Origin: a virus
Virus record (IMG/VR): IMGVR_UViG_3300042691_011822
Coordinates: 1 to 28,481 of that record
Strand: one strand, 5' to 3'
DNA: 28,481 bases
A model generated the notes under the pieces. The model saw only the letters and a program-made list of their open reading frames with translations, was not told where the DNA came from and ran no database searches. Numbering within the stretch: the stretch's first letter is position 1; every line of letters begins with the position of its first letter. Below are positions 5,991 through 24,456 of this stretch, piece by piece. The position numbers and the translations under genes were made by a program.

Positions 5991-5993
5991 TTG

Positions 5994-8601: not shown

Positions 8602-8605
8602 TTAG

Positions 8606-8614
8606 AATAAATAT
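8606..8614 (-). promoter_or_regulatory. Candidate promoter element ATATTTATT
   Basis: On the minus strand this reads TTG-ATATTTATT-CTAA and then the ATG at 8601, only 4 nt downstream. It touches the stop codon of the preceding gene. If it is a -10-type element, the transcript would be nearly leaderless. Confidence 0.35.
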
Positions 8615-8964: not shown

Positions 8965-8994
8965 ATAACTAATATATGTAAATACTAGTTACAA

Positions 8995-9438
8995 TCAAAC
9001 CTGCGTGTCTCGATCGCCTTTATGTTTGTCAATTTTATCTAAAATAGAATTTAAAAGATCTGCTTTAATAAATCCAGCCATTGAAGCATTTTTTAAAGCG
9101 CTTAGTATTTGAAACACAATGAATGGAACAAGAATTGTTTCGCTCAACCAATCCGTGCCTTTAAATCCATGTTCAACTGCTAAGAGCACAGTCATAAACA
9201 TGACCCATACTACTAACGTTGCTAGAACTTTCAAAGCTTTTCGAGTTTGAAATCCTTCTCGTTTACATCCGGCAATAATTCCGAAAAATCCATCTAATAG
9301 CACGACACATATTAAAGAAAGATATTGTTCAGCATGATCCATTGTCATGTTAAAAAAATAACTCCCTATAAATGCAAGTGTCCCGGTTACTGAAAGTACT
9401 GTCATTAGAGCTGTCGTTTTCAATTTAATTGTCTCCAT
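8995..9438 (-). CDS. Holin-family membrane protein
   Basis: I place the start at ATG 9438, giving 147 residues, because it overlaps the amidase stop as TAATG. An in-frame ATG at 9474 would add 12 polar residues and overlap the amidase by 37 nt. Hydrophobic segments lie near residues 9-29, 40-56, 69-87 and 99-112. The LLDGFFGIIAGCKREGFQTRKALK segment region (about 47-70) and the ALKNASMAGF stretch near 113-122 resemble the phage holin_4 (toxin-secretion/lysis holin) family. A charged tail (KIDKHKGDRD) ends the protein. Holins form inner-membrane lesions that time lysis. Coupling to the amidase supports this role. It could be a different membrane protein of the same fold. Confidence 0.7.
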   Translation of the reverse strand: METIKLKTTALMTVLSVTGTLAFIGSYFFNMTMDHAEQYLSLICVVLLDGFFGIIAGCKREGFQTRKALKVLATLVVWVMFMTVLLAVEHGFKGTDWLSETILVPFIVFQILSALKNASMAGFIKADLLNSILDKIDKHKGDRDTQV

Positions 9439-10109
9439 TACAATGTTTTTAGCATGGTTATCATTCTGGGACATGGATATATGTCAATTTTATCTTTTCG
9501 ATATGAATTGTGTGTGTATAATCCATTTTCGCCTCGCAATGCTTTTGTGTTTACTGTAAAACACTGATCATAGTTAAACGTTAAATCTATATTATACGTT
9601 GTTTTCCAATACACAAGTAAATCATGTACTGCTTCAATTTGAGCATCGGTGTATCGGTGAAAATATTTGTGACCTTTATATGCCTCTGGTAATTCAGTAA
9701 CGGCTTCTTTAGGAACTTCTCGGTTCACATAACTATAAAACTTATCTCCGCGTTTTTCCAATTGTCCCCAATTGCAAATTTCAATTCCAATAGAATGTTT
9801 ATCTAATTCCGTATATGGAACTTTATAGGCGCGAAATACTTCTTGTTTTACACCTAGGTGATATGCCCAATGTTTTGAGGAAAATGCTTGGCAAATTTCA
9901 CCATCTACAGAATTTTTACCAGCCCCTGATATCGTAACACATGTTGCAATTCGGCCTCTGTCATCATTATCCCAATTCTGGATAGTTGCTACTCCGGAAC
10001 TATTTCCAGCTGTGTGATGCAAAACGATTTGATTTTTCTTAGCTTCCACTTTAAAATACTGTGACTCTTTAAGTGGAACCTGCTTAATTTTAGATAACTC
10101 TAATGCCAT
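9438..10109 (-). CDS. N-acetylmuramoyl-L-alanine amidase (endolysin), Amidase_2 family
   Basis: The endolysin hydrolyses the bond between N-acetylmuramic acid and L-alanine in peptidoglycan. I start at ATG 10109 (MALELSKIKQ, 223 residues), 2 nt after the preceding gene's stop; the longer frame to 10184 would overlap that gene. The Amidase_2/T7-lysozyme fold shows IVLHHTAG (His31/His32), HWAYHLG near 80, SIGIEICN near 108 and YPCPRM near the end. Probable zinc ligands are one His of the HH pair, His200 and Cys213, with Lys/Asp (KDKID, 205-209) between them. There is no signal peptide or cell-wall-binding domain, so release would depend on a holin. The stop overlaps the holin-like gene start (TAATG). 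Confidence 0.9.
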   Translation of the reverse strand: MALELSKIKQVPLKESQYFKVEAKKNQIVLHHTAGNSSGVATIQNWDNDDRGRIATCVTISGAGKNSVDGEICQAFSSKHWAYHLGVKQEVFRAYKVPYTELDKHSIGIEICNWGQLEKRGDKFYSYVNREVPKEAVTELPEAYKGHKYFHRYTDAQIEAVHDLLVYWKTTYNIDLTFNYDQCFTVNTKALRGENGLYTHNSYRKDKIDIYPCPRMITMLKTL

Positions 10110-10355: not shown

Positions 10356-11111
10356 CTAGATATATTTCAAGTTATTTTCTGGATTATGTTTTATATAACT
10401 ACCCCATTTATACCGGGCATACTCATGTCCTTTTGATTCGGCTTGTTGGCGTGCTTCTCCATTTGTAGATGCTGATGCGAAATGATAGAAATGGCAATTC
10501 CATGTTCTAATCATTTTCAGACCGGAGAGTTGACATTTCAAAAAGAAATCCCAATCCGCTACCATCCCTAATTCATAATTTTCATCCCAGCCGCCAATTC
10601 GAATAAAATCTTGTTTAGACATAAATATGGGCAATGTAGAGCCGCTTTCTTCTGTCTTATCTCCGGATGCGTAATGATAATCATATAACCAAAACGTTTC
10701 TAAATCAAATTCACTAATTACACGACCAAGATCTTTTATATGAAATTGTTTGAACATACTAGGATATGGCTCAATCTGATTAGGAGTAATTACAGTGTTA
10801 GGTACCCAATCATCTTCCAATGTAGTATCCCAAAAGCGAGGAAATACATTGTCATCATTAACAATTAAAATTTTATCATAACGTGCATTATACACTCCCA
10901 AATTTGTTCCGCGACATAGTCCAATGTTTTGTTCTAGATTTAAAACATCGATAGAATCTTTCCATTTATCTAGAACTTCTTTGTTGATATCATAATGTCC
11001 ATCTACGACAACTATGATTTGATTTTTATTTTGCTGGCCTGTTATTGCTGATTCTAAACATAAATTCAATAACGAGGGACTTTTGTACGTAGGTATTATT
11101 ACCGATATCAT
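10356..11111 (-). CDS. Glycosyltransferase, GT2-like (GT-A fold)
   Basis: I start at ATG 11111, an ATGA overlap with the upstream stop, giving 251 residues (MISVIIPTYKS). The GT2 layout is clear. SVIIPTYKSPSLLNLCLES is the nucleotide-binding start. VVVDG lies at 34-38. NIGLCRGTNLG at 62-72 is followed by LIVNDDNVF, where DDN at 86-88 fills the metal-binding DXD position. GGWDENYELG and ADWDF near 175-192 hold the likely catalytic acidic residues. It should transfer a sugar from an NDP-sugar donor; donor and acceptor are unknown. It is the last gene of the 14-gene glycan cassette. There are no membrane segments, so it is probably cytoplasmic. Confidence 0.85.
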   Translation of the reverse strand: MISVIIPTYKSPSLLNLCLESAITGQQNKNQIIVVVDGHYDINKEVLDKWKDSIDVLNLEQNIGLCRGTNLGVYNARYDKILIVNDDNVFPRFWDTTLEDDWVPNTVITPNQIEPYPSMFKQFHIKDLGRVISEFDLETFWLYDYHYASGDKTEESGSTLPIFMSKQDFIRIGGWDENYELGMVADWDFFLKCQLSGLKMIRTWNCHFYHFASASTNGEARQQAESKGHEYARYKWGSYIKHNPENNLKYI

Positions 11112-11803
11112 AACTGATTCCAATCTGTTAATGGAGATAACCAAGCTGTTTCCCCGTGAGTAGCATATCCTGGGATAGATGTTATTAGTAATTCGTTATT
11201 ATCACGTAGTTCTAAAAACATATGAAAATCATTTGGATGTGTAGTATTAGTATGTTTCCTTAATATCGTTTCGATACGTTTTATCGTAGATACTTTGCTA
11301 GCAAATGTCATTGTAGTTGAATTTGTAATCTTCCAATGACATGATTTAGTTAAATATACACGAGTATCTTCTGCTCCACCGTCACAATAAGGATTACCTC
11401 CTAGACTAGGATCTAAATACTTGTCTGGATGATCATATACCGAAACAAATGAGGCGCCTAAATCAAATCCTTCTTTTAGTATATCCGCAGCATTCGATTT
11501 GTGTAAATAATCGTTTTCTACAAAATAAACTATTTCATCATCTGCCCATTTTATAGCTTTATCCAATGCTAAATTAAATGTACCGGCGCCATGGCCTATA
11601 GATACTTGTTCTATGTTAATCGGATCAATGTAACGTTTAATCATGGCTACCGTAGATTCACTACAATTATCTGCTATAATTAAGATATCATGGATGTAAT
11701 TAAAAAATACATTGCAAAAATTCTTTAAACAAGTTTCATTGTTAATATATTCTGGTTTAACTTTATTGTAACCAGTATCTGATATTCTATAGATTATTTT
11801 CAT
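11108..11803 (-). CDS. Putative glycosyltransferase (GT-A-like, atypical)
   Basis: The protein has 231 residues. Both ends overlap neighbours by ATGA (start 11803, stop 11108). The first half alternates hydrophobic strands and helices as in GT-A enzymes (DILIIADNCSE at 39-49, then GAGTFNLALDKAI). YFVENDYLH at 93-101 gives an END triplet at 96-98 in the DXD position. Later segments YDHPDKY and GGNPYCDGG are followed by HMFLELRDNNELL. This fits a family of phage and environmental glycosyltransferases rather than canonical GT2. Donor and acceptor are unknown. The tight coupling to GT2 enzymes on both sides is the main support for a role in the same glycan. Confidence 0.65.
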   Translation of the reverse strand: MKIIYRISDTGYNKVKPEYINNETCLKNFCNVFFNYIHDILIIADNCSESTVAMIKRYIDPINIEQVSIGHGAGTFNLALDKAIKWADDEIVYFVENDYLHKSNAADILKEGFDLGASFVSVYDHPDKYLDPSLGGNPYCDGGAEDTRVYLTKSCHWKITNSTTMTFASKVSTIKRIETILRKHTNTTHPNDFHMFLELRDNNELLITSIPGYATHGETAWLSPLTDWNQL

Positions 11804-12576
11804 TTAAATGAATTAATTACTCTGTAGTTAGATTCGGTTCTTGTTATTTCTAATAAATTTCCATCTACTGGATTGTTAGTTTGCAGCGGAAATAGCATTC
11901 TGTCATGATATTGATGATATGTCATCGGCGAATCTATAGATATTATGTTCATACCTTTTAATTTAACTCGATCTAAAAAATTATCATCCCCATGGGACAT
12001 ACCGTATGCAAATCTTTCATCAAATCCACCCAAATCATCTAAATCTTTTTTTGTAATAGCAGTACAAAAATTAAAACATGTATTTCGATGCAAACTATGT
12101 TGATACCAACCACCGGTGTGTCCTGGTAAATTTACAGATACAAATTGATTACTAACAATATCATCATATGACATAAGATTTAACTTTTGTGTTGCATCTG
12201 GTGTTAATGATAGTGTAGCATATACTAAATAATCATTAGTTTTAACTCTGTTTAAAACATCCGAGATAATATCGCCGACAAACATACATTCCCCACACAG
12301 TAACACAATAACATCTCCGGTTGCCATGGCAATTCCTTTATTTATAGGAATCACCGGGCAGCCCCACCATTTTTCTTGTTTATTAAATGAAAATATATTA
12401 AAATTTAAATCAGGATAATATGATGGCAAATCATCAATTTTATGAATATCATCAGATGCATCGTCTACTATTATAATTTCTATATCTTGGTAACTATTAC
12501 TTTCCGATATTGATTTTATAGTATTTAACAGCTGATAACGTCTGTTATAATACTGTATTACGATTGATACTTTCAT
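11800..12576 (-). CDS. Glycosyltransferase, GT2 family
   Basis: The protein has 258 residues. The N-terminus MKVSIVIQYYNRRYQLLNTI and VDDASDD at 37-43 are typical of GT2 nucleotide-sugar binding. NKGIAMATGDVIVLL precedes CGECMF at about 94-99, which replaces the usual DXD and resembles the NPE-type variant seen in some GT2 enzymes. GGFDERFAYG at 183-192 and GDDNFLDRV at 196-204 hold the expected catalytic acidic residues, followed by YHQYH. Its stop overlaps the next gene by ATGA. It is separated from the epimerase gene upstream by 10 nt. Probably cytoplasmic; acceptor unknown. Confidence 0.85.
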   Translation of the reverse strand: MKVSIVIQYYNRRYQLLNTIKSISESNSYQDIEIIIVDDASDDIHKIDDLPSYYPDLNFNIFSFNKQEKWWGCPVIPINKGIAMATGDVIVLLCGECMFVGDIISDVLNRVKTNDYLVYATLSLTPDATQKLNLMSYDDIVSNQFVSVNLPGHTGGWYQHSLHRNTCFNFCTAITKKDLDDLGGFDERFAYGMSHGDDNFLDRVKLKGMNIISIDSPMTYHQYHDRMLFPLQTNNPVDGNLLEITRTESNYRVINSFK

Positions 12577-12586
12577 AGTTACCTAA

Positions 12587-13495
12587 TTATGGATGTTCTA
12601 CACTATTAACATCAAATCTTTTAATCCACTCATGTACATGTAATATACCTTCTTCTAACTCAACCTCCGGAGACCATCCTAAATTTCTAATACGTTCTGT
12701 GGATAATCGTTTAACTACAGTTTGCATAGAAGGTGCCGGGATCATTTGTATAAGATCTTCAGATTTGTCTGATAATTTACATGCAATTTTAGCAATATCT
12801 GACATAGGCCTTGGGTCATCATCGCGACCAATATTATAAATTCCACTTTCGGGATGTTCTATAATCATACGAAGTGCCCTCACGGTATCTCCTATCCAAC
12901 ACCATGATCTTTCAGCGCCAATGTGCACAGTCATTGGCATATTATGATATGCTTGCCATAGCATGGTATCCATCGCACGTCTTCCTTTACCCGGGGGAAC
13001 TCCTGGGCCATATGGCATTGATAGTCTAGCAATTACCAAATTATTAGGAGCAAATAATTGTGCTGCTTCTTCTCCCCATCGTTTTGTTAGTCCATACAAG
13101 TTATGTGGTAATTTTAATTCACCATATTCATCGCATATATGATCTCCTTGATCACCATATGCCTCCGATGTTGAAACATATGCTAATCTGATTCCCATAT
13201 CTCCGCAATGTTTAGCAACAATGGTAGTCATTTCAGCATTATGACGTACCGTATGTACAACATCCTGTTCTCCAAATAATCTACCAACTTGTGCGGCTAA
13301 ATGATAACATATATCTGGATTAATAGTTTCTATCCATTCTTTAAAACTATTTTCGTCTAATAAATTACGACCGACTTCGTCATTGATATCAGTACCGTAT
13401 ACATCATATCCATGTTCTTCTAGTTCCTTTTTTAGCCAGGATCCTACAAATCCATTAACACCAGTAATTGCGACTTTAATGTTTTTTTGTTTCAT
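12587..13495 (-). CDS. NAD-dependent sugar epimerase/dehydratase (extended SDR)
   Basis: The protein has 302 residues, the usual length for NDP-sugar epimerases and dehydratases. The Rossmann motif TGVNGFVG puts glycines at 12, 15 and 18. D36 after the second strand suggests NAD binding. HLAAQVG at 65-71 and STSEAYG at 108-114 are followed by the Y134-xxx-K138 pair (YGLTK), the catalytic SDR residues. The C-terminal region has IYNIGRDD, as in sugar-nucleotide enzymes that recognise NDP. It likely makes or converts an NDP-sugar donor for the surrounding glycosyltransferases. The exact reaction (4-epimerase, 4,6-dehydratase or reductase) cannot be fixed from motifs. No Shine-Dalgarno is seen; the leader is A-rich. 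Confidence 0.85.
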   Translation of the reverse strand: MKQKNIKVAITGVNGFVGSWLKKELEEHGYDVYGTDINDEVGRNLLDENSFKEWIETINPDICYHLAAQVGRLFGEQDVVHTVRHNAEMTTIVAKHCGDMGIRLAYVSTSEAYGDQGDHICDEYGELKLPHNLYGLTKRWGEEAAQLFAPNNLVIARLSMPYGPGVPPGKGRRAMDTMLWQAYHNMPMTVHIGAERSWCWIGDTVRALRMIIEHPESGIYNIGRDDDPRPMSDIAKIACKLSDKSEDLIQMIPAPSMQTVVKRLSTERIRNLGWSPEVELEEGILHVHEWIKRFDVNSVEHP

Positions 13496-13509
13496 TTGTG
13501 TTTCTTTTG

Positions 13510-14406
13510 TTAGTTTAAATTAAAAATTTTTAAAATTTGTTCAATAACTTGCTTATCATTATAATAAGGATTCAATGTTACATGTCCAACCTTTGGGAAA
13601 TAATACTCCGGACCTAATTTTGGTTGTTCTATTTTTTTTAATACCCCATTCCAACCATAGAGTTGTAAATTAAAATCTCCAGTAATTATAGTTTTTGTAC
13701 CAACTCCAGCTGCAATTGTTGCTAATCCGCCATCTGTACCTAAAAACGCATCACAGTATTTCAAAACGGAGGCCTCAAATAACAATGACTTACTATCATC
13801 TTCTGCAATATTAGATGTTTGCTGTTGATTTAAATTACCTACACCAACTTCGTAAAATGTAAAATATTCTCGAATCCCGTTCACAATAAAGTTAATATCT
13901 CGATGTTTACCCCCATAACCTAAATTAGGAACATCGATACCTTGTTTATATTGTTCTTCTGTATACAAATATGTTTTAGGTTGCCAATTACTCATCAATG
14001 CAACAACCGGTTTTCCGTATTGTTCTCGTAAATCATTAATTAGTGTCTGTGCTACTTTATCATATTCGGGTTGAGTATATACCATATATTCTGAATTAGG
14101 AGTCTCGATCCCAGCAGTAATCTGATATTCCTCACAAGGAGTAACTACGTAGTTAAGAGACTGCAACTGTATTATCTTATCGTATGAATTACGATCTATA
14201 CTGGATACCGGGTGCGGACTAGGAAATTCAGAAACGTATACTTTATTAATAAATGGATTATTAGACATTAGCCGATACATTTGCGGAAATCCAATTAAAT
14301 AATCTATTTGATCGTACCGACTTTGTAATTTTTCAGCTAAAGATCCAGCAAAGGCAATATCTCCAAAAAATCCGCAAGTAACAATTAAACACTTAGTATT
14401 TTTCAT
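13510..14406 (-). CDS. Glycosyltransferase, GT9-like (heptosyltransferase fold)
   Basis: The protein has 298 residues. The N-terminus (CLIVTCGFFGDIAFAGSLAEKL) matches GT9 enzymes, where a Gly-Asp pair (G15-D16) follows the first strand. The diagnostic C-terminal segment is LGTDGGLATIAAGVGTKTI (about 222-240), corresponding to the GNDTGPMHLAAA donor site of ADP-heptose:LPS transferases. It is shorter than bacterial WaaC/WaaF (about 320-350). It probably adds a sugar from an NDP donor, but heptose specificity should not be assumed. Its start overlaps the DUF6165 gene by 14 nt. Confidence 0.75.
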   Translation of the reverse strand: MKNTKCLIVTCGFFGDIAFAGSLAEKLQSRYDQIDYLIGFPQMYRLMSNNPFINKVYVSEFPSPHPVSSIDRNSYDKIIQLQSLNYVVTPCEEYQITAGIETPNSEYMVYTQPEYDKVAQTLINDLREQYGKPVVALMSNWQPKTYLYTEEQYKQGIDVPNLGYGGKHRDINFIVNGIREYFTFYEVGVGNLNQQQTSNIAEDDSKSLLFEASVLKYCDAFLGTDGGLATIAAGVGTKTIITGDFNLQLYGWNGVLKKIEQPKLGPEYYFPKVGHVTLNPYYNDKQVIEQILKIFNLN

Positions 14407-14764
14407 ATGATTTTTCTTCTATAAACGTAGAACCGTATTTTAAGTTAATTTGTTTTTTAATTTCAGCTCGTTTATCATTGATTATATATACATTTCGAGC
14501 GTGTGCAATAAATGTATCATCAAATTGTTTACGAGATTCCATTTCTCGGAGATTATCTTCAATTTCCCAAAGAATCCCGTTAATATGTAATAGTTCTGAA
14601 AAATCCGAGTCATGTATATTTAACTGTTTAAATACAATATCGTATAAATAATCATATTCTGAGATTACATTTTTTAACTTTTCAGACTCTATAATATTGT
14701 TTCTTTTTAACTGTAGTATTGATAATTTATCTACAATTTCTCCAACTGACACTTCTACTTTCAT
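14393..14764 (-). CDS. DUF6165 family protein
   Basis: I start at ATG 14764 (MKVEVSVGEIVDKLSIL), which overlaps the upstream stop as TAATG and gives 123 residues; an earlier in-frame start at 14800 would add 12. The sequence fits DUF6165 over its full length: VSVGEIVDKLSILQLK at 4-19, a helical centre with LWEIEDNLRE, and the ending NDKRAEIKKQINLKYGS, then EEKSYEKY. The family is found in bacterial glycan gene clusters and in phages. No activity is known to me. The charged, helical character suggests a small accessory or scaffold protein. It lies between the GT7-like and GT9-like genes, overlapping both. Confidence 0.75.
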   Translation of the reverse strand: MKVEVSVGEIVDKLSILQLKRNNIIESEKLKNVISEYDYLYDIVFKQLNIHDSDFSELLHINGILWEIEDNLREMESRKQFDDTFIAHARNVYIINDKRAEIKKQINLKYGSTFIEEKSYEKY

Positions 14765-15513
14765 TAATCTTTTACCGTATAATTTGTACTTTTTATCCAA
14801 CGAACATGTTCAATGCCAGTATTATATTCTTCTACATCTGCTTTTACATTGCGATATCCCAGATGTCTATATTCATATGCATTTGCAAAGATCTGTCGAC
14901 CTGTTATAAAATCTTCTTGATGTTCTCGCGGTTTCTTTGCAATATCTCCGTTATCTTCATGATACAGGCAATAGTATGTTCCAACTTCATTACGTACAGG
15001 AGTATATCCAGCCCATTTAAATCTTTCTCGCAGATCTTCATCTTCATTGCCCCAACCTTTATATAACGGATTAATTCCATTGATCGTATCCCAATGTTCT
15101 TTTCGCATTACGATTACACCACCGTAAAAATTTTCATCAATTCCACTTTCCCATTTTCGATATCCGCCTGGAATATCATAGTAGTCCCGTTTAGTAAAAT
15201 CGGTATTAACAAATACGCCATGGCGTGCCGGAAGTACTGGCTGATCGTGTATTTCGTAACTAACATCATCAGTTGGATAGTAATCTACTTGATGCAACAC
15301 AATGATATTTCCTGTAGCATATTGTGCTGCTACATTTTGTGTATTTGCTAAATTAAAGTTATCTGAGTCGTTTTGTTCAGATACGATGATTTCATACTCT
15401 TTACCAGTAAAGACTTGTTGTAATCTAGGAAGTAATACTTGTAAATGAGCTTCTCGATCTCTATACGGTATGATTATAGAATACTTATCGTTTAAAGTTT
15501 TGGATTCTGTCAT
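14764..15513 (-). CDS. Galactosyltransferase-like enzyme (GT7-like)
   Basis: The 249-residue protein has the layout of beta-1,4-galactosyltransferases. YSIIIPYRDREAHLQVLLPR (11-30) matches their PFRNRxEHL motif. EQNDSDNFNLANTQN at 46-60 matches the QxxxxxFNRAxLxN element. HQVDYYP at 74-80 fills the DVD metal site, with QVD. FYGGVIVMRKEHW and INGINPLYKGWGNEDEDL (to about residue 161) match the FGGV and GWGGEDDD signature. Predicted reaction: transfer of a sugar (often Gal or GalNAc in the family) from UDP-sugar; the actual donor is unknown. There is no membrane anchor, unlike the Golgi relatives. Its start lies inside the upstream gene by 29 nt. Confidence 0.8.
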   Translation of the reverse strand: MTESKTLNDKYSIIIPYRDREAHLQVLLPRLQQVFTGKEYEIIVSEQNDSDNFNLANTQNVAAQYATGNIIVLHQVDYYPTDDVSYEIHDQPVLPARHGVFVNTDFTKRDYYDIPGGYRKWESGIDENFYGGVIVMRKEHWDTINGINPLYKGWGNEDEDLRERFKWAGYTPVRNEVGTYYCLYHEDNGDIAKKPREHQEDFITGRQIFANAYEYRHLGYRNVKADVEEYNTGIEHVRWIKSTNYTVKD

Positions 15514-16258
15514 ATTGATGTACTATTTTATATTTTGAAACATTATTTAAATCAAATTCAACTAAACCAGCATTAATTACATGCAAATGAACTGCAAAGT
15601 GATCATTTAGATCTGTAAATTTTGTTACGTGCTTATATTTTGTTTGTATTAAGTAGTTAAAAGATGTTTGATCCGCTACCTTAGGTTTTCCAGCTGATAA
15701 CAAATATATATCTGAACATATATCTCTAATTAAATCTGCTGGACCACCGAATACACCTACATTGTATACTGGACATTTAAGTAACAAATCTATACCAATG
15801 AATCCTAAATTTTCATACAAATGTTGTTGATTCCATTGTTCTTCATTATATGTTATAATTTCCGATGTTGCTGTTATTTTATCTGGCTCTAACGAATCAA
15901 ATGGGTTTGAATTAAAATAAACATCCCGAATATCAGTTATAATAACATGTTCATAACCGTATTGCATTAAAACTTGCCATATGTGATAAAATCTAATGTT
16001 ATGTATAAGCGTATACGATGATGCTAAATTCATGGTTCCGGTATTTGTAGTAAATTCTTGCGTTCTACCCCAAAAATCATGAGTTGGTTTAATACATTGT
16101 ACATTATTATTAATTAGAAATTCTTCTAATTCAACATTATCGTTGTATAATAGTAATATACGATCTACGTTATCAAATACCGATGTTTCAATCCAAGAGC
16201 TAACATCTTGAATTGTATAATTGCCACTAATGGCACCTATTAGTAAATTAGTTTTCAT
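15485..16258 (-). CDS. Putative glycosyltransferase with DIRDV motif
   Basis: I start at ATG 16258 (MKTNLLIGAISG, 257 residues), an 11-nt overlap with the FkbM gene; an earlier start at 16306 would overlap it by 59 nt. IITDIRDVYFNSNPF at about 106-120 gives a D-x-x-D metal-site motif like those of GT8-like and related GT-A proteins, where TDxRDVxFQxNPF is a recurring form. VYNVGVFGG near 163-171 and ADQTSFNYLI further on match the usual acceptor-side features (a GVFGG turn and DQ..FN). Donor and acceptor are unknown. Probably cytoplasmic and part of the same glycan pathway. Confidence 0.7.
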   Translation of the reverse strand: MKTNLLIGAISGNYTIQDVSSWIETSVFDNVDRILLLYNDNVELEEFLINNNVQCIKPTHDFWGRTQEFTTNTGTMNLASSYTLIHNIRFYHIWQVLMQYGYEHVIITDIRDVYFNSNPFDSLEPDKITATSEIITYNEEQWNQQHLYENLGFIGIDLLLKCPVYNVGVFGGPADLIRDICSDIYLLSAGKPKVADQTSFNYLIQTKYKHVTKFTDLNDHFAVHLHVINAGLVEFDLNNVSKYKIVHQYDRIQNFKR

Positions 16259-16850
16259 TGATAAATAAAATATCTTGTTGATACGATCCGTGATTGCGAG
16301 CTTCATCTAAAATCTCTACCGCACGAAATCCAATTTGATTCATATATGTTATAACATCATCATATAATGGAGCACCTTCATTATATTGTGTTATTGAAAC
16401 TTCTAATAAAATTCCTTTAGCTCGTTTACACAAATTTATTCCGCCTTCTATTATATCTAATTCAGACCCCTGTGTATCTATTTTGATCAAATCAAATTCA
16501 GAATCTGCTTCGAATAAGTCATCTAATCGAATTCCATATTGTTTAATAACATTTAATTGTTCATCTGAATAAAAATGTGTTAATTCTCGATAAATGGAAT
16601 TACCAGTACCAATACCAGTATCTTTTCTACTATAGAAATTATATTCCTCATTATTTTTTGCTAATAATCCTATATAGTAATTTGTTGTTAATTGTTTTAA
16701 ATATGGTTCGCAATCTGCTGAAGCTTCGATTGAAAATATAAAACTATCAGGGAAATGACTTAAACAATGCTGATAAAACTGTCCAACATTTGCTCCGATA
16801 TCTAGAATACGATGTGGATAAAAATATTTTGTTATTTCATGTAAATTCAT
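16248..16850 (-). CDS. FkbM-family methyltransferase
   Basis: The protein has 200 residues. ILDIGANVGQF at 15-25 is the SAM-binding motif I and FSIEAS near 40 is motif II. DLIKIDTQGSELDIIEGG (120-137) with ILLEVS (147-152) is the hallmark of Methyltransf_21/FkbM enzymes, which O-methylate sugars or small-molecule hydroxyls. It is shorter than FkbM (about 260) but retains the core. It probably caps or decorates the glycan built by the neighbouring transferases. The start shares an ATGA overlap with the upstream gene and the stop overlaps the next gene by 11 nt. Confidence 0.85.
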   Translation of the reverse strand: MNLHEITKYFYPHRILDIGANVGQFYQHCLSHFPDSFIFSIEASADCEPYLKQLTTNYYIGLLAKNNEEYNFYSRKDTGIGTGNSIYRELTHFYSDEQLNVIKQYGIRLDDLFEADSEFDLIKIDTQGSELDIIEGGINLCKRAKGILLEVSITQYNEGAPLYDDVITYMNQIGFRAVEILDEARNHGSYQQDILFINEN

Positions 16851-17806
16851 AAATTTAATAATTGAATAAGATTGTTGGTAATATTAGGATATAAAATATT
16901 GTTTAAATACCAATTTCTAGCATTTAATGATATCGAATCGATTAATTCTGTATCATTAATTACATGTTTGTATTTATATGAAATTTCGTGAGCTAATAAA
17001 TCTGGATTTGAATATCTAAATTCACTATCAAATTCAGTATCTACTGATATATAATGAAAGTCAGGTATCAATGGATCTGATGTTTCTATTACGTATTTAG
17101 GACGTAACAATGAAATTCCTAAACCAAACATTTCAATATCACGAAAACATAAATCACCACAAATAGCACCACCTCCTCCACCAATTGATAATGCTAATTT
17201 AAAGTTAAATGATTCTTGCAAATATTGATCATATGGTATTGGGCCAGCTCCAAAATATAATTCAGTGTTTGTTAAATAATTTGGCAGTAATTCCAATGCT
17301 TTTCGAACTCCTAAATATCTAGAATCTACCCCTTGATTATATAAACTACCGCGCCAATATAGTCTCGTGTCTAACTGATTTGATTTTCTAAATTCTTGTA
17401 CAACATCATAATTAATACCTAGTTGCCAAACTGTGTCTGGATACGGTCCGGCTACAATAGATTTACGAATTTTCGTAGATGTGCAGATTTTATTCCAATA
17501 TTGTGGATTATACTGGCCAACAACAGCACCGGCAAATTTAGGTTTGGTGCATAGTAACACTGTTAATGAAGGATGATCCCCAAAATCATATATTTTAAAT
17601 TCTTTAGTATCATCATACTCAAAAATTAAAATAGATCCATGATTTATAGAAACATCATGGAATTTAAAAGAACCGTCACCAGTTACTTCATGTCTAATAA
17701 CTTCAAACTGAGTTGATAATGTATTTTGTAGTGCAATAGAATTATTATGATCAAACCGATGTTCTGCAATGCCTTTATGAAAACTATAAAAATTTAATTT
17801 TCTCAT
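16847..17806 (-). CDS. Putative glycosyltransferase, GT-B/GT90-like
   Basis: The protein has 319 residues, with ATGA overlaps at both ends. The middle has LYWRGSLYNQGVDSRY (about 148-163), like the FRG/WRG element of GT90 (CAP10-like) and related transferases. A glycine-rich stretch follows (KLALSIGGGGGAICGD, about 208-223), then RDIEMFGLGISLLRPKYV. This layout matches the substrate-donor loop before an acidic residue in that fold. The end has helices typical of a C-terminal closing segment. The assignment is to fold and role, not to a reaction. The neighbours are two methyltransferases, so it may supply the sugar that they methylate. Confidence 0.55.
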   Translation of the reverse strand: MRKLNFYSFHKGIAEHRFDHNNSIALQNTLSTQFEVIRHEVTGDGSFKFHDVSINHGSILIFEYDDTKEFKIYDFGDHPSLTVLLCTKPKFAGAVVGQYNPQYWNKICTSTKIRKSIVAGPYPDTVWQLGINYDVVQEFRKSNQLDTRLYWRGSLYNQGVDSRYLGVRKALELLPNYLTNTELYFGAGPIPYDQYLQESFNFKLALSIGGGGGAICGDLCFRDIEMFGLGISLLRPKYVIETSDPLIPDFHYISVDTEFDSEFRYSNPDLLAHEISYKYKHVINDTELIDSISLNARNWYLNNILYPNITNNLIQLLNL

Positions 17807-18429
17807 ATTTTTTCAAAACAGGCTGTTAATATGTTTGGCGATAATGTTTTGTCTTTTCTAATTTTATCTTCAATATTACAATAATTAATCATTGAAAATC
17901 CTTGACGTTTCATAAAGTTGTATAACGTAACTTCATTAAAATGATATAGATGTTCATCTGGTTTTCTATGTTTCCATGTTTCAAACCATACATCATCTAA
18001 TCCATTATAACACCACGGAAGACTTATAACTACATATTTACACCGCAAATCTTTTACCCATTCAATATCTGGAAAATGTTCTAAGCTATCAAAAAATGTT
18101 ATTACTTCAACTTCTTGAGACGCTATATCTTCAACAAATGTAATGTCTGAACTTAAAGGATATGCTGGAACAATATCATTTCCATATAGATTAGGAATAA
18201 ATTCTTTACAACAATCTAAGAAGTCCCCATTTCCATATCCAACATCCATTAGGGAATTTGGAACATGTCCTATAGATCCTATAATATATCCTAATCTTAA
18301 ATTTAAAATATTTCCGCGATCGTTGAAAATTGAATATCTACTGTCTGAATAGTCGGTATCATAGTTAAATGGAGTAACGTTAATTTGTTTAATAACCCCA
18401 TCTGTTGTAAGTTCGTAGTTTGGTATCAT
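17803..18429 (-). CDS. SAM-dependent methyltransferase (class I)
   Basis: The protein has 208 residues. LMDVGYGNGDFL at about 60-71 is a class I SAM-binding motif I. ITFFDSLEHFPD near 109-120 is the motif IV/post-motif segment of Methyltransf_23-type enzymes. HLYHFNEVTLYNFMKRQGF is the usual C-terminal helix-strand of UbiG/sugar-type methyltransferases. The substrate is unknown; a sugar or NDP-sugar is likely from context, between two transferase genes coupled by ATGA overlaps. Confidence 0.8.
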   Translation of the reverse strand: MIPNYELTTDGVIKQINVTPFNYDTDYSDSRYSIFNDRGNILNLRLGYIIGSIGHVPNSLMDVGYGNGDFLDCCKEFIPNLYGNDIVPAYPLSSDITFVEDIASQEVEVITFFDSLEHFPDIEWVKDLRCKYVVISLPWCYNGLDDVWFETWKHRKPDEHLYHFNEVTLYNFMKRQGFSMINYCNIEDKIRKDKTLSPNILTACFEKI

Positions 18430-19073
18430 AATGTTTCGTAGTATTCGTTTTGTCGTTCTTGTCGGTCTATCGTCTTTGGATGGTATAACGCTAAACTAGT
18501 ATCTTGTGGTAAGTTAGCATATGTTTGAAATCCATCAAGTCGTTCATGAACTTTATTAATCCATTTAATCTCAGGCTTACGCTTCCAAATTCTCCACTGA
18601 TAATCAGGCCAATTTACCCATCCAGATCCATTTACATTCCAACCCCATTGTTGTATATGTTGCTCAGTTAATCCTTCAACTGTATTAATTCTAGGAACTA
18701 AGAATACTTCATTTTCTGGATTTTTATCTAATATATCAGGTAAAATTTGAATTAGACTTTCTACTGGTAATTCATCTGCATCAATTTGAAAAATATAATC
18801 GCCAGAACATTGATCAGTTAAATGATTTTTAAATTTTGCAAAATCGTTATTAAGTGGATGAAATATAACTCGTATATGGCCATGTTCTTGATGTTTCATA
18901 ATATAAGCAAAGACTTCATTTTTATCTGTTGGCTGATTGTTTATATCATCTAAATTCAAATCCATCTGAACCACAATTTCATCTTGTGGTCTTTTATGTT
19001 CTAGTAAAAATGTAATGAGCCGTTGAATTTCAATAAATTCATTACAAACCGTAACTGCATAACTTATTTTCAT
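18426..19073 (-). CDS. Glycosyltransferase, GT2 family (WaaE-like)
   Basis: The 215-residue protein opens MKISYAVTVCNEFIEIQRLI, a typical GT2 beginning. QIDADELP at about 96-103 gives the DXD site (D98, D100). YQWRIWKRKPEIKWINKVHE (about 164-183) followed by RLDGF resembles the WaaE/KdtX subfamily of LPS-core beta-glucosyltransferases, where R..R and HE residues follow. It is slightly shorter than those enzymes (about 250), and the end is trimmed. The stop overlaps the methyltransferase start by ATGA. Predicted to add a hexose to a glycan acceptor. Confidence 0.8.
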   Translation of the reverse strand: MKISYAVTVCNEFIEIQRLITFLLEHKRPQDEIVVQMDLNLDDINNQPTDKNEVFAYIMKHQEHGHIRVIFHPLNNDFAKFKNHLTDQCSGDYIFQIDADELPVESLIQILPDILDKNPENEVFLVPRINTVEGLTEQHIQQWGWNVNGSGWVNWPDYQWRIWKRKPEIKWINKVHERLDGFQTYANLPQDTSLALYHPKTIDRQERQNEYYETL

Positions 19074-19098: not shown

Positions 19099-20379
19099 TT
19101 ATTCTCCAACCTTTTGTAACTTAGGCAATTCTATCTTTTTTAACTGCGGTAACTTAAGTTCTACCGGTTTTGGTATCTTATTAATGCTTTCATCTGCGAT
19201 GCTTAATACGTTCTTATACACCCCAGATACGGCAGTTTTAGTAAATGTGCTGTTTACAAAATATCTCTGTCGTTTTGCTAGATCTACCCATTTTTTGTAA
19301 TTTTTAATCACATCTTGCATCATTTTCCCCGCATATCCATAATCCGTGGTAAACCAATTTGCCCCAGCAATTAAAAAATCATTTTGTGCTGACTGATGTA
19401 TAGGCGTCAATGCTCCAGGTAGTGCACAGATAAATTCTTTCTTTAAAAAATCAGCTTGGCCTGAGTAATATGGTGCTAGTATTGGTTTTGCGGTAGTTGA
19501 AAATTCTAACAATGGACGACCAAATCCTTCTGCTTTAGTAAATGATACCATTGCTTTTACTTTAGGATGGTTATACAACGAATTCATTTCCGAATCAGTC
19601 AAATCACCATGTAGTAAATAAATGTTTGGTAATCGATCTTTTGTAAACATTGCACGTACTTGATTGATTTTAGATTCCATTTCCATTCGATCAATTACGC
19701 TATATGTAGCTCCACTTGTTTTTAAAATTAAAGCCGGCATATTTTTTGTGTTCTTAAATGTATTCAGAAAACAATGAACTACTCCGCCAATATTTTTACG
19801 ATCTTCTCCTAATTGACCTTGCAGCCAATGTCCCACTGCTAAAAATGCAAAAGTTTCTGGAATATCGTTTAATTGTGGAATTGTTTCTATTGCATTAACC
19901 GCAGATTCTGATTTGTTAGAATATACCGTTTCATTGAAGTATTCTGGAATAACTTCTATACGAGATGTAATTGATTTTCCAGATTCTTTTGCTGTATTTT
20001 CAAATACCGTTTTAGTGAATTCGCTTGGAACAATTACTAGGTCTAATGCATTTAAGTTATCAATCCATTGTGGCGGACATTTATCGCCCTCCGTCCCAGC
20101 AGTAACACCAATGTTATATTTACCTACTCGTTGCAATTCATTTGGTACTGATACTTGAATCCAGACATCCGGTTGGGCTTGTAACGGAAGCGGAACAATT
20201 CGAGACTTCCAATCTGTAGGTATTTCATAATTCATCGGAGTATGTCCCCATGGCAATGAAATTAATTTAATATCCCATTCCGAACCTCGCTGTTCAATAA
20301 TATTTTCTACAATTTCACGTGTATGATGTCCATAACCCGATTGCGTTTGTACCGGTCCTGCTATAACTACTGTTCTCAT
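19099..20379 (-). CDS. Glycosyltransferase, GT4-like, with ELPKL tail
   Basis: The protein has 426 residues. The N-terminal half begins VVIAGPVQTQSGYGHHTREIV, with the glycine-rich loop of GT-B enzymes. VIVPSEF lies near 115-121. The C-terminal half has LAVGHWLQGQ (about 180-189), LLHGDLTDSEMNSLY and the EGFGRPLLE motif at 284-292, the GT4 E-x7-E donor site. The last 21 residues, from about 406, are a basic, hydrophobic tail with LPQLKKIELPKLQKV, outside the expected fold. A near copy (MELPKLRKI) begins the neighbouring GT4 protein upstream. The start overlaps that gene's stop as TAATG. Donor and acceptor are unknown. Confidence 0.85.
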   Translation of the reverse strand: MRTVVIAGPVQTQSGYGHHTREIVENIIEQRGSEWDIKLISLPWGHTPMNYEIPTDWKSRIVPLPLQAQPDVWIQVSVPNELQRVGKYNIGVTAGTEGDKCPPQWIDNLNALDLVIVPSEFTKTVFENTAKESGKSITSRIEVIPEYFNETVYSNKSESAVNAIETIPQLNDIPETFAFLAVGHWLQGQLGEDRKNIGGVVHCFLNTFKNTKNMPALILKTSGATYSVIDRMEMESKINQVRAMFTKDRLPNIYLLHGDLTDSEMNSLYNHPKVKAMVSFTKAEGFGRPLLEFSTTAKPILAPYYSGQADFLKKEFICALPGALTPIHQSAQNDFLIAGANWFTTDYGYAGKMMQDVIKNYKKWVDLAKRQRYFVNSTFTKTAVSGVYKNVLSIADESINKIPKPVELKLPQLKKIELPKLQKVGE

Positions 20380-21869
20380 TATGCTACTATTCCTGTTTGT
20401 TGATATGTTTTATGTTCTACTTGATTAAAAGTAAATTTAGGTCTCGATTCTGTTTTTGCTTCAAATAAATAATTAAACATTTCAACCATTTTTTTACCCA
20501 TTTGTTCTGCAGTCAATCCATTTTTTTCACAAAAACTTCGTCCCTGTAACCCGTATGCAGATCTCTGTGCTGTTTCCATTTTGTACCAATACATAATAGC
20601 GTCTGCTACATCTTCAAATCGAACCCGATCATCAAAAATATACGGTGTTTGTGGTGATCCTTGTAGTGATCGGTTGCTAGGAAATACCGGTTTAGCCCAA
20701 ATACCATGTTTTGTGTATTTACCATTATGGTTTGTTGCAAATTCACCATCAAATCGTATCCATTCGCCATTTTCATCCTCAAATCCACATTGATCTTGCA
20801 ATCCTCCTGTAACATTGTTGATAATAGGCCGGCCTGCTAACATGGCTTCTGTGCTACTAAGTCCCCAACCTTCATTACTACCGATGTTCACTACAACATC
20901 AGCAACGTTATACATTGCATTAAGGTCTTCTGCATTAAGTTTTTGTTCAGAAAAGATAATTTTACAATTAGGAGCCAATGTTGATGCTACCGCACGAAGA
21001 TCGGTTCCGTTATCATCTACTGCCTGTGTGTGCATTAATAAAGCAACACGTAGTTTCTGATCTTCTGGCAACTGATCTACAAAATGTTTAAATGCTAAAA
21101 TTAAATCTCCTGGCTGTTTTCTTCTGATGTTTCTGTTATTCCACATAACAACAAAATCAACATCTGAATTTTGTTTAATTTGTGCGTGCATTTGTTTGTA
21201 TCGATCGTCGGTATGATCTAATGGCTTAAATGTGTTATGATTGAGACCATGTGGAACAAATCCAGTAACTATTTCATTCCATTTTAAATCTGCTGGAACT
21301 GATTTACCCGCATCATAATCTACAACATTGAATCTGTTCTGAGTTAAAACTTGTTTGTGTATGTTATCAGATTGTTTGCTAATACCCATGATCATATCAC
21401 AAGATCCATAATATGGCGCATTCCACATTGGATATGGCAAATCATCCCAAATAGAATAATATGTAATTGGAACACCAAACGTAGTTTTAATTTCATGCTC
21501 TAACTGATACAGCCATATCCAATATCGAGGATCTGTAAAATGCAGAATAGCATCAGGTTGTTCTTGTTCTAATAGTGAAAATAGAATATTTTTATCGCCA
21601 TATCCATTATATGGTATCAGTTTAACTGATGCATCTTCTACACCAGTTATTTGTGCTACTTCAGCTGACACATCAAAAGCCTTTCCTGCTTCCGGGTGCT
21701 GCAATGCGCCTCCTAGTTGTACCCAATCAAAATGTTGTATGGTATTAAAAATAATTTCTTTGCTGATAGTACCTATACCGCTCGGTAAACGAAAATCATC
21801 TGATAGTAATAGAATTTTCTTTTTCTTTGGTGCGTTAGGGTCAATCTTTCGTAACTTTGGTAACTCCAT
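20379..21869 (-). CDS. Glycosyltransferase, GT4-like, first gene of the glycan cassette
   Basis: The protein has 496 residues, larger than most GT4 enzymes (about 350-420). An N-terminal extension MELPKLRKIDPNAPKKKK precedes the first GT-B strand (ILLLSDDFRLPSGIGT, with the G-rich loop). FVPHGLNHNTF near 204-214 starts the second domain. NIGSNEGWGLSSTEAML (about 328-344) contains the E-x7-E donor site (EGWGLSSTE, 333-341), then GRPII and GGLQDQ. AKGGAATG-type LPS motifs are not seen. AAAGGAAG precedes the start, and an ATATTTATA element lies 25 nt upstream, so this may be the promoter-proximal gene of the cassette. Confidence 0.85.
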   Translation of the reverse strand: MELPKLRKIDPNAPKKKKILLLSDDFRLPSGIGTISKEIIFNTIQHFDWVQLGGALQHPEAGKAFDVSAEVAQITGVEDASVKLIPYNGYGDKNILFSLLEQEQPDAILHFTDPRYWIWLYQLEHEIKTTFGVPITYYSIWDDLPYPMWNAPYYGSCDMIMGISKQSDNIHKQVLTQNRFNVVDYDAGKSVPADLKWNEIVTGFVPHGLNHNTFKPLDHTDDRYKQMHAQIKQNSDVDFVVMWNNRNIRRKQPGDLILAFKHFVDQLPEDQKLRVALLMHTQAVDDNGTDLRAVASTLAPNCKIIFSEQKLNAEDLNAMYNVADVVVNIGSNEGWGLSSTEAMLAGRPIINNVTGGLQDQCGFEDENGEWIRFDGEFATNHNGKYTKHGIWAKPVFPSNRSLQGSPQTPYIFDDRVRFEDVADAIMYWYKMETAQRSAYGLQGRSFCEKNGLTAEQMGKKMVEMFNYLFEAKTESRPKFTFNQVEHKTYQQTGIVA

Positions 21870-21894: not shown

Positions 21895-21903
21895 TATAAA
21901 TAT
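21895..21903 (-). promoter_or_regulatory. Candidate promoter element ATATTTATA upstream of the glycan cassette
   Basis: On the minus strand this reads G-ATATTTATA-TTAAAT, 25 nt before ATG 21869. It overlaps the SLOG-like gene stop by one base. It could drive the 14-gene cassette. Confidence 0.45.
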
Positions 21904-22307
21904 CAACCAAGTATAACTACTGGTTTTTTTAATTTGTTTACATTGTTGTATGCTGTTTTTAAAACCGGATCTAATTCGGCTTCATTGGTCATAATCATCA
22001 TGTAGTTGCAATGCTCTGCAATTAGTTTCATGCGATGATGTAATTGGCTAAAATGATACTTTTTGCCATAATATGATTCTGGCATTGCTGAGTATAAATT
22101 ATATCCAGAAAATGATGGATTGAATTCCTGATATTGCATTCCGAATTCTAGTGCAAATTTCCTAACAAAAGAATTAGCTCCTTCATTACCGCCGGCTCCT
22201 ATGATTGTTAAATCATCCGGAAACTTTCTTTTTAACATTTGCAGGGTTTCTTGCACTTTGCGTTTATTCTGCCAATCCGTATTACCTATAACTGCTACTT
22301 TTGTCAT
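21903..22307 (-). CDS. SLOG/YspA-like nucleotide-binding protein (DUF2493-like)
   Basis: The protein has 134 residues. KVAVIGNTDWQNKRKV at the start matches the DUF2493/YspA pattern of a first strand followed by a D-W/D-x turn. TIIGAGGNEGANSFVRKFALE (about 34-54) is the glycine-rich phosphate loop of the SLOG superfamily. RMKLIAEHCNYMMIMTNEAE with KPVVILG at the end fits the family's final strands. SLOG proteins bind nucleotide-derived ligands; this branch has no settled function. It is coupled by ATGA to a small unknown gene and lies before the glycan cassette. Confidence 0.65.
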   Translation of the reverse strand: MTKVAVIGNTDWQNKRKVQETLQMLKRKFPDDLTIIGAGGNEGANSFVRKFALEFGMQYQEFNPSFSGYNLYSAMPESYYGKKYHFSQLHHRMKLIAEHCNYMMIMTNEAELDPVLKTAYNNVNKLKKPVVILG

Positions 22308-22519
22308 TGTGCCTTTTCATATAAAAATTTAACACCCTTTGGCATATGTCCACAAACAATACGAAGCATAGATTCTAATAAAGCTCTATTTTGTTTGCTA
22401 TTAGGTCCGGCCGTATCCGTGCATAATCTATATTCACATTTTTGCCAACCATAATATGGAGCTCGCTTTGATAACTCGTAACCGTATACGTAAATATGTT
22501 TATGTGAATATCGAACCAT
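22304..22519 (-). CDS. Small hypothetical protein
   Basis: I place the start at ATG 22519 (MVRYSHKHIYVYGYELSKR), giving 71 residues. An in-frame ATG at 22558 would add 13 residues, overlap the nuclease gene by 20 nt and put the candidate promoter element inside the gene, so it is less likely. The protein is basic and tyrosine-rich with three cysteines (CEYRLC and VCGH). I see no known domain. It could be a small zinc-binding or RNA-binding protein, but that is speculation. Its stop overlaps the SLOG-like start by ATGA. Confidence 0.5.
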   Translation of the reverse strand: MVRYSHKHIYVYGYELSKRAPYYGWQKCEYRLCTDTAGPNSKQNRALLESMLRIVCGHMPKGVKFLYEKAQ

Positions 22520-22527
22520 ATTGCTAT

Positions 22528-22536
22528 TATAAATAT
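22528..22536 (-). promoter_or_regulatory. Candidate promoter element ATATTTATA
   Basis: On the minus strand this reads A-ATATTTATA-ATAGCA, 8 nt before the preferred start at 22519, just past the nuclease stop. A promoter here would give a very short leader. Confidence 0.4.
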
Positions 22537-22538
22537 TT

Positions 22539-23495
22539 TTATTGACGAATCCTAGCATCCTTAGGACAATTCACATAATCTGTTTTGAACGGACAATACT
22601 TGCAATTTTTATCACCTTTGCCGGATATTGCCATGTATTCGCGAGCCTCATTCTTGTTGCCTTCTGCATCGAAACAAGCTTCAACAAATTCATCAATAGC
22701 TTTTTGAACTTTGCGTTGTGTAACAGTGCCAGATGCTGGTTTGAATTGTTGCACTCGCTTTTGTGGAAACATGGATTCTTCAATTAGCTTTCGCTTCACA
22801 ATAAAGAACTCAACATCGATGTTTTCTTTAGGTGTTCCAAACTGAGTTGAAAAATAATTCTTATATGCAATTAATTGTGCAGCTTTGATAGAATCCTGTT
22901 TTTGAAATTTATTCCAACCTGCTCGACTTGTTTTAATATCGAGTATATAAATTTTATTGTTTACAGTATCTCGAAGTACTACATCAATAAAGCCGTACCA
23001 AAACACAGAAGGATTCTTTTCAGATGCCTGAGTGCACAATTCAATTTCTATGCCTACCAGTTCCCAATTCTTTGTGGAGAAATACTGTTTGCGGCGCTTT
23101 TTTAACCAATCTAATATAGCAGCACCATCTTCTAGGTATTCTGCTAGTTGCAACGGATTTGAAAAATGGGTTCCGCCATTTTCTTCTACACAACGCTTAT
23201 ATTCTTCACGAAGCTTGTTAGTTAAGATGTCACGAAGATTTAAATCATCTGCACGTTTAACAGATTCGGTATACATAACCGTTAAGTAGTGTTGCAAGGT
23301 TTCGTGAAATGCAGTACCGAAACATGTTTCTATGCTGAATGTAAATGGAGCCAAGTTATCAATGTATGACAACTTCCATTGACGTGGACATTTCTCATAC
23401 ATGGACCATTGTGAATAAGATATCTTACGAGGAACCGTAGTTGCATCACGCAAAGATAACTGATAGATGGGTGCTATATAGTTTCCTTGTTTCAT
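22539..23495 (-). CDS. PD-(D/E)XK nuclease with Cas4/AddB-like Fe-S cysteines
   Basis: The protein has 318 residues. ISYSQWSMYEKCPRQWKLSY (25-44) is the N-terminal motif of RecB/Cas4-type nucleases. H64 in GTAFHE, E152, D171 (FIDVV) and D186-x-K188 (ILDIKTS) form the PD-(D/E)XK active site. Cys36 with C298, C301 and C310 near the end makes a C...C-x2-C-x8-C pattern like the 4Fe-4S site of Cas4, AddB and Dna2. It probably cuts or resects single-stranded DNA ends in phage replication or recombination. It is likely a Cas4-like phage exonuclease, not an immunity protein: no CRISPR array or cas1/cas2 is present. Its 5' region faces the lone plus-strand gene. Confidence 0.85.
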   Translation of the reverse strand: MKQGNYIAPIYQLSLRDATTVPRKISYSQWSMYEKCPRQWKLSYIDNLAPFTFSIETCFGTAFHETLQHYLTVMYTESVKRADDLNLRDILTNKLREEYKRCVEENGGTHFSNPLQLAEYLEDGAAILDWLKKRRKQYFSTKNWELVGIEIELCTQASEKNPSVFWYGFIDVVLRDTVNNKIYILDIKTSRAGWNKFQKQDSIKAAQLIAYKNYFSTQFGTPKENIDVEFFIVKRKLIEESMFPQKRVQQFKPASGTVTQRKVQKAIDEFVEACFDAEGNKNEAREYMAISGKGDKNCKYCPFKTDYVNCPKDARIRQ

Positions 23496-23553: not shown

Positions 23554-24456
23554 ATGAAACTAAAATCACTATTAACAGAAAGTACAAAATTAAAATTTCC
23601 TATATATGTGGAAGGGTCATATCGAGGAAGAGGTTGTGATGAATTTCATGCATTCAATGACACACATGGCCGTACGGTTGGTGGCATGAATATAAAAGTT
23701 AATAAAAAACTTAAAGAAATTTACAATGCTGGATATAATCCAGATATAACTAATGTAGAAATACATATGGATAATAGTAACTATTTTGTTTCATGGAAAG
23801 TTACTATCAATGAAAGTAGAGATGGTAAAGCATGGGTCGGATTAGTAAGTAGAGGTGCTGGATCTGGTTCCGAAACCGATGTAATACACCGCGCGGATCC
23901 TTCTAACTCATCAAATCATACAAGCCCTAGCACAATACTCAATCGGTATTCAAATATCGAGGATATAAAACAAGTATTAGATTATAAATATTTGCCAAAA
24001 ACCGGATGTAAAGTTAGACAAATATTTTATAAGTATACACAAAAAAACTATCCGGTTAGACAAGAATCATATAATAAAAAAATACGAGCAATTATAGGTA
24101 CTGTATACTACATAATAAACAACCCAGAAAAATATTTTTCAAAATTTAAAAGTTGGAATCCTGCGCAAATAAAACAAGATCCAAATATTAGATTTGTTTC
24201 GGGAGATGATGAATTAGCAGCGTCTTCTTGGTTTGCATCTTATGTTAATAAAAATATATTGCCTACATTGAGAAACATATATCCGCATTGCGACAAACAT
24301 GATAAAATTAATATTCAAAATATCTATTCATTGTTAAAAATGATTATTGATGCTATTGAAAATGATAAAGAACTATCTATTAATTTTGTATATTACATAC
24401 ATGAAAATATAGAATGGAATATTAAAAATTTAACATTTACTTGGAATGGATTATAA
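23554..24456 (+). CDS. Hypothetical protein, only plus-strand gene in the window
   Basis: The protein has 300 residues and starts MKLKSLLTESTKLK. There is no signal peptide or membrane segment. An N-terminal half with GSYRGRGCDEFHAFND (about 21-36) precedes a strand-rich region (VEIHMDNSNYFVSWKVTI), AWVGLVSRGAGSGSETD and then HRADPSN. The C-terminal half is helical and Lys/Asn-rich (ASYVNKNILPTL, LLKMIIDAIENDKEL). No known family is recognised. Its DNA is richer in A and T than its neighbours by eye. It converges on the lipoprotein gene and diverges from the nuclease gene with a 58-bp gap. It could be a late-acquired accessory gene (moron) or a virion-borne protein; neither can be shown. Confidence 0.7.
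   Translation: MKLKSLLTESTKLKFPIYVEGSYRGRGCDEFHAFNDTHGRTVGGMNIKVNKKLKEIYNAGYNPDITNVEIHMDNSNYFVSWKVTINESRDGKAWVGLVSRGAGSGSETDVIHRADPSNSSNHTSPSTILNRYSNIEDIKQVLDYKYLPKTGCKVRQIFYKYTQKNYPVRQESYNKKIRAIIGTVYYIINNPEKYFSKFKSWNPAQIKQDPNIRFVSGDDELAASSWFASYVNKNILPTLRNIYPHCDKHDKINIQNIYSLLKMIIDAIENDKELSINFVYYIHENIEWNIKNLTFTWNGL

Follow-up and report, generated by a model that had tools for sequence, protein, structure and literature searches.

The window, by which we mean the whole stretch of 28,481 bases that was analysed, is an IMG/VR virus record in its own right and, judged by its gene content, represents part of the genome of an uncultivated tailed phage. Two neighbouring genes on its minus strand, GTa and GTb, code for predicted glycosyltransferases that carry copies of one short peptide. 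The features of the locus are as follows.

21903..22307, minus strand: YspA/YAcAr-type SLOG protein directly upstream of GTa (Pfam YAcAr, E 4e-7)
20379..21869, minus strand: GTa, predicted GT4-type glycosyltransferase, 496 aa (Pfam, PHROG and GT-B fold matches)
21840..21869, minus strand: GTa N-terminal tag MELPKLRKID (sequence; 80/126 distinct GTa)
20377..20381, minus strand: TAATG stop-start overlap of GTa and GTb, one shared base, the A
19099..20379, minus strand: GTb, predicted GT4-like glycosyltransferase, 426 aa (PHROG, AlphaFold and GT-B fold matches)
19132..19164, minus strand: GTb tail unit 1, VELKLPQLKKI, residues 406-416, P411 invariant (alignment of 113 GTb)
19108..19131, minus strand: GTb tail unit 2, ELPKLQKV, residues 417-424 (pN/pS 0.241 for 418-424)
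10356..19073, minus strand: downstream cluster of GT2- and GT7-like enzymes, epimerase, FkbM and other methyltransferases (Pfam; three proteins had no match and one lay outside the scan)

GTa matched the Pfam family Glycos_transf_1 (E 6.3e-8), GTb no Pfam family at E 0.001, and both matched the glycosyltransferase family PHROG 2170 with E 1.1e-19 for GTa and 7.4e-12 for GTb. Foldseek searches with the predicted models revealed a GT-B fold, with 3oy2_A from a chlorella virus as best match for both proteins (E 5.4e-18 for GTb, 1.5e-16 for GTa). The EX7E acid pair, a hallmark of GT4, is present as E333 and E341 in GTa, invariant in 51 sequences, and as E284 and E292 in GTb, invariant in the alignment. 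By sequence, predicted fold and acid pair both proteins would thus class as GT4 / GT-B glycosyltransferases, in agreement with the first-pass annotation of this DNA. The AlphaFold model of GTb (43 sequences) reached a mean pLDDT of 90.6, that of GTa was weaker (80.7) and contained several low stretches. At the C-terminus of GTa (window 20379-20444) a variable stretch is followed by TGIVA, with G493 and I494 invariant in 51 sequences and a pLDDT below 50 for residues 492-496, possibly a further terminal motif.

The N-terminus of GTa reads MELPKLRKIDPNAPKKKK, the C-terminus of GTb VELKLPQLKKIELPKLQKVGE. An ELPKL-type peptide shared by both proteins had been noticed before and placed at the junction of the two genes. 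The peptide is real at the GTa start and the GTb end, but its placement has to be corrected: GTa is the upstream gene, hence its N-terminus (~21840-21869) and the C-terminus of GTb (~19102-19164) are the far ends of the pair, and the two copies lie 2.7 kb apart at the outer ends. The TAATG overlap noted at the junction was confirmed and comprises a single base. An AAGGAAG stretch is located five bases ahead of the ATG of GTa. Among relatives, the two genes overlapped in 138 of 167 loci, most commonly by 1-4 bases (122/167), and GTa was present wherever more than 1.5 kb preceded the GTb start. Three loci (L200, L209, L219) have ~750-850 bases between GTa and GTb instead of the usual overlap, so another gene may sit there. 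A natural fusion of the pair was not found: the first 104 loci contained no open reading frame above 700 aa, and the only one of this size in the window was the open frame at its left end.

Aligned without gaps, the two termini matched with a best score of 34, a value reached in 0 of 5000 draws from whole-protein composition and in 34 of 5000 shuffles which preserved the termini's own lysine- and leucine-rich composition, with a stop sign included among the 30 GTb letters shuffled. Ranking of 7637 8-mers from 31 minus-strand window proteins (the plus-strand frame 23554-24456 and the open frame at the left end of the window were left out) identified the two GTb tail units as nearest to ELPKLRKI besides itself, with scores of 34 and 28, followed by 21. 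A scoring matrix was built from 59 distinct tail 8-mers, with no tags in it and the window left out, and run over the open reading frames of six genomes. In the genomes G001-G004 the tag scored 24.0-24.4 and the best tail unit 23.4-25.0, tail scores that are partly given by construction since the training tails, taken from IMG/VR loci, included those of these four genomes; the best unrelated 8-mers reached 11.6, 15.0, 16.7 and 14.2, respectively. Lesser tail units scored 19.9 in G001 and 16.6 and 13.0 in G003, there below the internal match of 16.7. In Flavobacterium phage immuto the tail units scored 23.0, 17.2 and 10.9, the best unrelated 8-mer also 10.9, and in Microcystis phage Mel-JY01 nothing was detected in GTb, the top match (16.9) being internal to a 792-aa protein. 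In G001 the tag is identical to the last tail 8-mer. L224, a locus of another tagged lineage, has a GTa front MQQLQLPKLRKI that closely resembles its own GTb tail QQIQLQLPKLKKI, and this likeness extends upstream of the motif. In the clade of the window, the start methionine of GTa stands at the place of the first leucine of the tail. As far as such sequence comparisons reach, the GTa tag is the same motif as the GTb tail. A chance resemblance of K/L-rich termini, for which the 34 equally good shuffles would leave some room in the window alone, conflicts with the conservation of the motif and the proteome ranking across genomes; its probability is practically negligible. For one variable residue, no significant covariation between tag and tail was observed (median p 0.625, few pairs).

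To follow both peptides through the relatives, loci were fetched by GTa or GTb with query stretches outside the peptides, yielding the best 80 of 219, 19 of 19 and the best 80 of 592 relatives, so that more distant relatives are under-sampled. The counts refer to 177 loci that were not chosen by motif (L005-L103, L159-L236), with the named phages L001-L004 kept outside. For GTb, 112 rows were retained, while 38 were duplicates, 19 were cut by an end and 8 lacked the gene; together with the window's own protein these form the alignment of 113 distinct complete GTb. For GTa, 125 rows were retained (40 duplicates, 8 cut, 2 with the N-terminus not reached, 2 absent), to which the window was added. 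The bearers constitute a large family of aquatic phages, many of them uncultivated. Named relatives of the pair are immuto and Mel-JY01, whereas in Rhodothermus phage RM378, LR756508 and S-EIVl only GTa was matched. The RM378 relative is distant (27.7 % identity) and the gene following it carries no such tail; the distant GTa of RM378 and LR756508 are also without tag. The Far-T4 phages are described as a group in PMC4360716.

The tail of GTb consists of 1-4 units of the motif L-K-L-P-x-L-K-K-[IV]-E, with the overall consensus P-K-x-V-x-L-K-L-P-x-L-K-K-[IV]-E-L-P-K-L-K-K-[IV]. Over GTb with identities to the window protein down to ~43 %, P411 was conserved in all 113 sequences, L410 in 112, P403 in 110, L413 in 108 and L408 in 107; P419 of the second unit was aligned in 89 of the 113, with a gap in 23. 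The units are most commonly spaced by 8 or 5 residues (range 3-19), in a tally that is biased towards 8 because its set includes loci retrieved with the tail pattern. Variation in unit number and spacing is expected of independent units. By inspection, tagged and tagless phages did not clearly differ in unit number. In the codon alignment of the 113 GTb, LKLPxL had a pS of 0.781, a pN of 0.168 and a pN/pS of 0.215; the high synonymous value together with the low ratio argues for a constraint on the peptide, not on the DNA. The second unit had a ratio of 0.241 compared to 0.461 for the GTb core, 0.780 for the linker and 0.901 for the preceding helix. Residues 408-413 ranked 52nd among 418 six-codon windows and are well constrained, not extreme; all these ratios are uncorrected pairwise proportions over related sequences that are not independent. 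Synonymous change over tag and tail was as high as elsewhere, with the exception of Leu3 of the tag. On the evidence of these codons, purifying selection is acting on the GTb tail. Mel-JY01 has kept both enzymes, its tail is only degenerate, FVMPSLSNTNFPALKKH, and its GTb still aligns at P411 and L413.

The abundance of lysine and leucine in the tail could indicate an anchor, by which a basic, leucine-rich peptide would tether the enzymes, through charge and hydrophobicity, to DNA or, with a lipid-linked acceptor, to the inner membrane. Some GT4 enzymes are peripheral membrane proteins. However, each unit contains a proline, commonly at intervals of 8 residues, which speaks against a helix, the fixed proline and leucine positions exceed what charge alone would need, and the same positions recur in tag and tail; a small chance is left to such an anchor. 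AlphaFold predicted no secondary structure for GTb residues 401-426, with pLDDT values of 66, 52 and 53 per block, which could also result from alignments restricted to close relatives. Binding motifs commonly show up as near-invariant stretches for which no structure is predicted, although such a stretch is no proof of one. The position of the nearly invariant unit 1 soon after the C-terminal helix would also suit an intramolecular cap, with the tail folding onto its own GTb, and the tag onto GTa, to regulate or stabilise the enzyme. Such a cap is unlikely given the low-confidence, unstructured tail in the model (judged by its confidence values and secondary structure), the variable spacing and number of units, and the presence of the same motif on the N-terminus of a different protein. 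By predicted disorder and by conservation against a variable surround, the tail resembles a short linear motif.

The tag is less widely distributed. LPx[LI] within the first 14 residues was detected in 80 of 126 distinct GTa and was absent from 46. Like the tail, the tag is predicted to be disordered, with a pLDDT of 46 for residues 1-10, a value that is less telling because the GTa model has other low stretches; its conservation as a short linear motif would be confined to the tagged part of the family. In the 80 tagged GTa, residues 2-10 had a pN/pS of 0.201 compared to 0.322 for the GTa core, a ratio lowered by the choice of rows for bearing LPx[LI]; the neighbouring strand had 0.092. Leu3 was encoded by TTA in 69 of 69 sequences, and pS over residues 3-6 was 0.371. 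Absence of the peptide from close homologues had been named beforehand as an argument against docking, and for GTa it does in part occur: some tagless proteins are 72-75 % identical to that of the window, while the adjoining complete GTb retain the tail. Wherever GTb was complete, phages without tag kept the tail, so the tag is ruled out as the binding partner of the tail.

All 80 tagged GTa belong to a group of 98 rows on one side of a branch with an SH-aLRT of 100, and the 28 immuto-like GTa rows are without tag. At least 10 changes of the tag were needed, 7 of them forced by starred branches of a quick GTa tree drawn with a midpoint root. The simplest reading, resting on this rooting, is an old tail and a younger tag that was probably lost repeatedly. 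A duplication or a former fusion, also considered in the first-pass annotation, may have copied the GTb tail onto the GTa front, as the likeness of tag and tail in L224 and the restriction of tagged GTa to one group suggest. As a functionless relic the peptide is very unlikely, since the tail is under constraint and was kept in all 113 distinct GTb sampled; an origin of the tag by duplication is compatible with docking.

Outside the gene pair the motif was sought at several levels. A loose pattern gave scattered matches in other proteins among the open reading frames of six genomes, none of them tail-like by eye. Strict patterns retrieved at least 119 stretches with the tail pattern and at least 119 with the tag pattern from viral_contigs, and all 78 new loci among the tail matches listed, some of them on contigs already covered, had GTb at the match. 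In 464 loci, many of them fetched through the GTa or GTb genes, 149 of 149 tail matches were in GTb and 189 of 189 tag matches in GTa. The search of other proteins of this genome and its relatives that had been proposed earlier therefore ended, among the matches listed for strict patterns, at GTa and GTb only. Among 84,980 prokaryote species (one genome each) the double unit occurred once, on a MAG contig, where it terminates one half of a GTb. The tail peptide matched only the four immuto records in the phages collection and had 0 matches in solved structures.

We assign a probability of about 0.6 to the reading that the peptide is a disordered, multivalent docking motif, with tag and tail sharing one putative receptor and the enzymes being held together. 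A motif of the form hydrophobic-x-L-P-[KQ]-L-[KQR]-K-[IV]-[ED] would act as short linear docking motif, borne by GTb as a disordered tail of 1-4 units and, in one group, by GTa as an N-terminal copy. Both copies would most probably occupy a common groove of a single receptor, so that the two enzymes are kept in one assembly, which could pass the growing glycan from one enzyme to the other. We infer protein binding, a receptor common to tag and tail, and its location inside the GTa-GTb assembly; this location is favoured by the presence of the motif on adjacent, usually overlapping genes and is somewhat likelier than a third phage or host protein, which is nearly as likely. The docking role suggested at first sight from the shared peptide is thus strongly, if indirectly, backed for GTb by near-universal conservation in the relatives sampled, constraint, predicted disorder and variable copy number; strong conservation makes this back-end copy probably a docking handle. 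For GTa it holds with limits. Tagless GTa (46/126), the degenerate tail of Mel-JY01 and the lack of significant tag-tail covariation are observations against docking. A bolder and tentative extension, which we regard as possible but doubtful, is a phage-specific docking code, in which LPxLxK units on GTb, and on GTa in one group, compete for one groove and unit number tunes the valency of a motif-driven glycan assembly line. A description of such a phage code was not found in the open-access literature searched. From its sequence the motif appears to be new, while the mechanism would be of a known kind and the function is plausible.

Short linear docking motifs as a class are brief and disordered, recur in units with variable spacing and keep a few hydrophobic or proline positions constant. 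The peptide of GTb and GTa shares the short disordered repeats, the variable spacing and the fixed hydrophobic and proline positions, but was found only on the glycosyltransferase pair among the matches listed. Pairs of the GtfA/GtfB type are two related glycosyltransferases that are encoded together and act as a complex. GTa and GTb are likewise related and encoded together, their complex being putative; the substrates differ, and we know of no LPxLxK-type tails on GtfA/GtfB-type enzymes. The same gene pair is present in Immutovirus (Flavobacterium phage vB_FspM_immuto) as gp181/gp180, with the GTb tail LKLPTLKKIELPQTKKVEIPRLKKL. There, GTa is without tag, and the record's feature table does not mention a tail.

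A glycosyltransferase held by another phage protein has a precedent. T4-type clamp motifs are usually found at the C-terminal end of the DNA polymerase. With clamp-like and clamp-loader genes in the window, tag and tail might tether the enzymes to a sliding clamp for modification of DNA at the replisome. According to PMC13216743, T4 alpha-glucosyltransferase, like the enzymes here one of a pair, is bound to the gp45 sliding clamp and co-purifies with it; the T4 enzyme works on DNA with the clamp as its partner, both of which would be putative for the present pair. In three relatives, the probable polymerase has the C-terminus NKFFSFG (G003), KKFFSFGK (G004) or SKFFNFK (Mel-JY01); those of G003 and G004 were identified by length and likeness only, and all three ends differ from the LPxLxK motif. 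Docking to the clamp is highly unlikely, because these three ends are FFSFG- or FFNFK-like and the LKLPxLKKI tail, devoid of aromatic residues, is unlike them; moreover, the neighbouring GT2, epimerase and aminotransferase genes are of a kind usually linked with glycans on surfaces or proteins. Should the tail prove to be a docking handle, the partner could be found directly by way of it, and with the partner perhaps the substrate, be it virion, host surface or DNA, on which this glycosyltransferase pair acts in many uncultivated aquatic phages; immuto is a cultured example. Phages would in that case also provide an instance in which multivalent short motifs organise enzymes.

Upstream of GTa the window encodes a PD-(D/E)XK nuclease and the SLOG-type protein. 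In LR756508, a 484-kb phage, a similar SLOG-type protein, below the curated cut-off, precedes GTa; the order nuclease, SLOG-type protein, GTa is common to the window (21903-23495) and this phage (L003:3256-6314), whose nuclease was identified by likeness only. On a MAG contig (L354:5227-7337) GTb is divided into two open reading frames (5933-6457 and 6537-7337), the second half ends in a two-unit tail, and a 232-aa frame, endonuclease-like by eye (5227-5925), separates GTa from the first half. The GTa of Mel-JY01 (L002:7998-9489) is annotated as two frames, 7998-8570 and 8581-9489, which may stem from a frameshift, an error in sequencing or a genuine split. Near the glycosyltransferase cluster, at window positions 2835-7069, three structural-looking proteins contain Ser/Thr/Ala-rich repeats of the SASYAxTASYV type; these are possible candidates for glycan acceptors.
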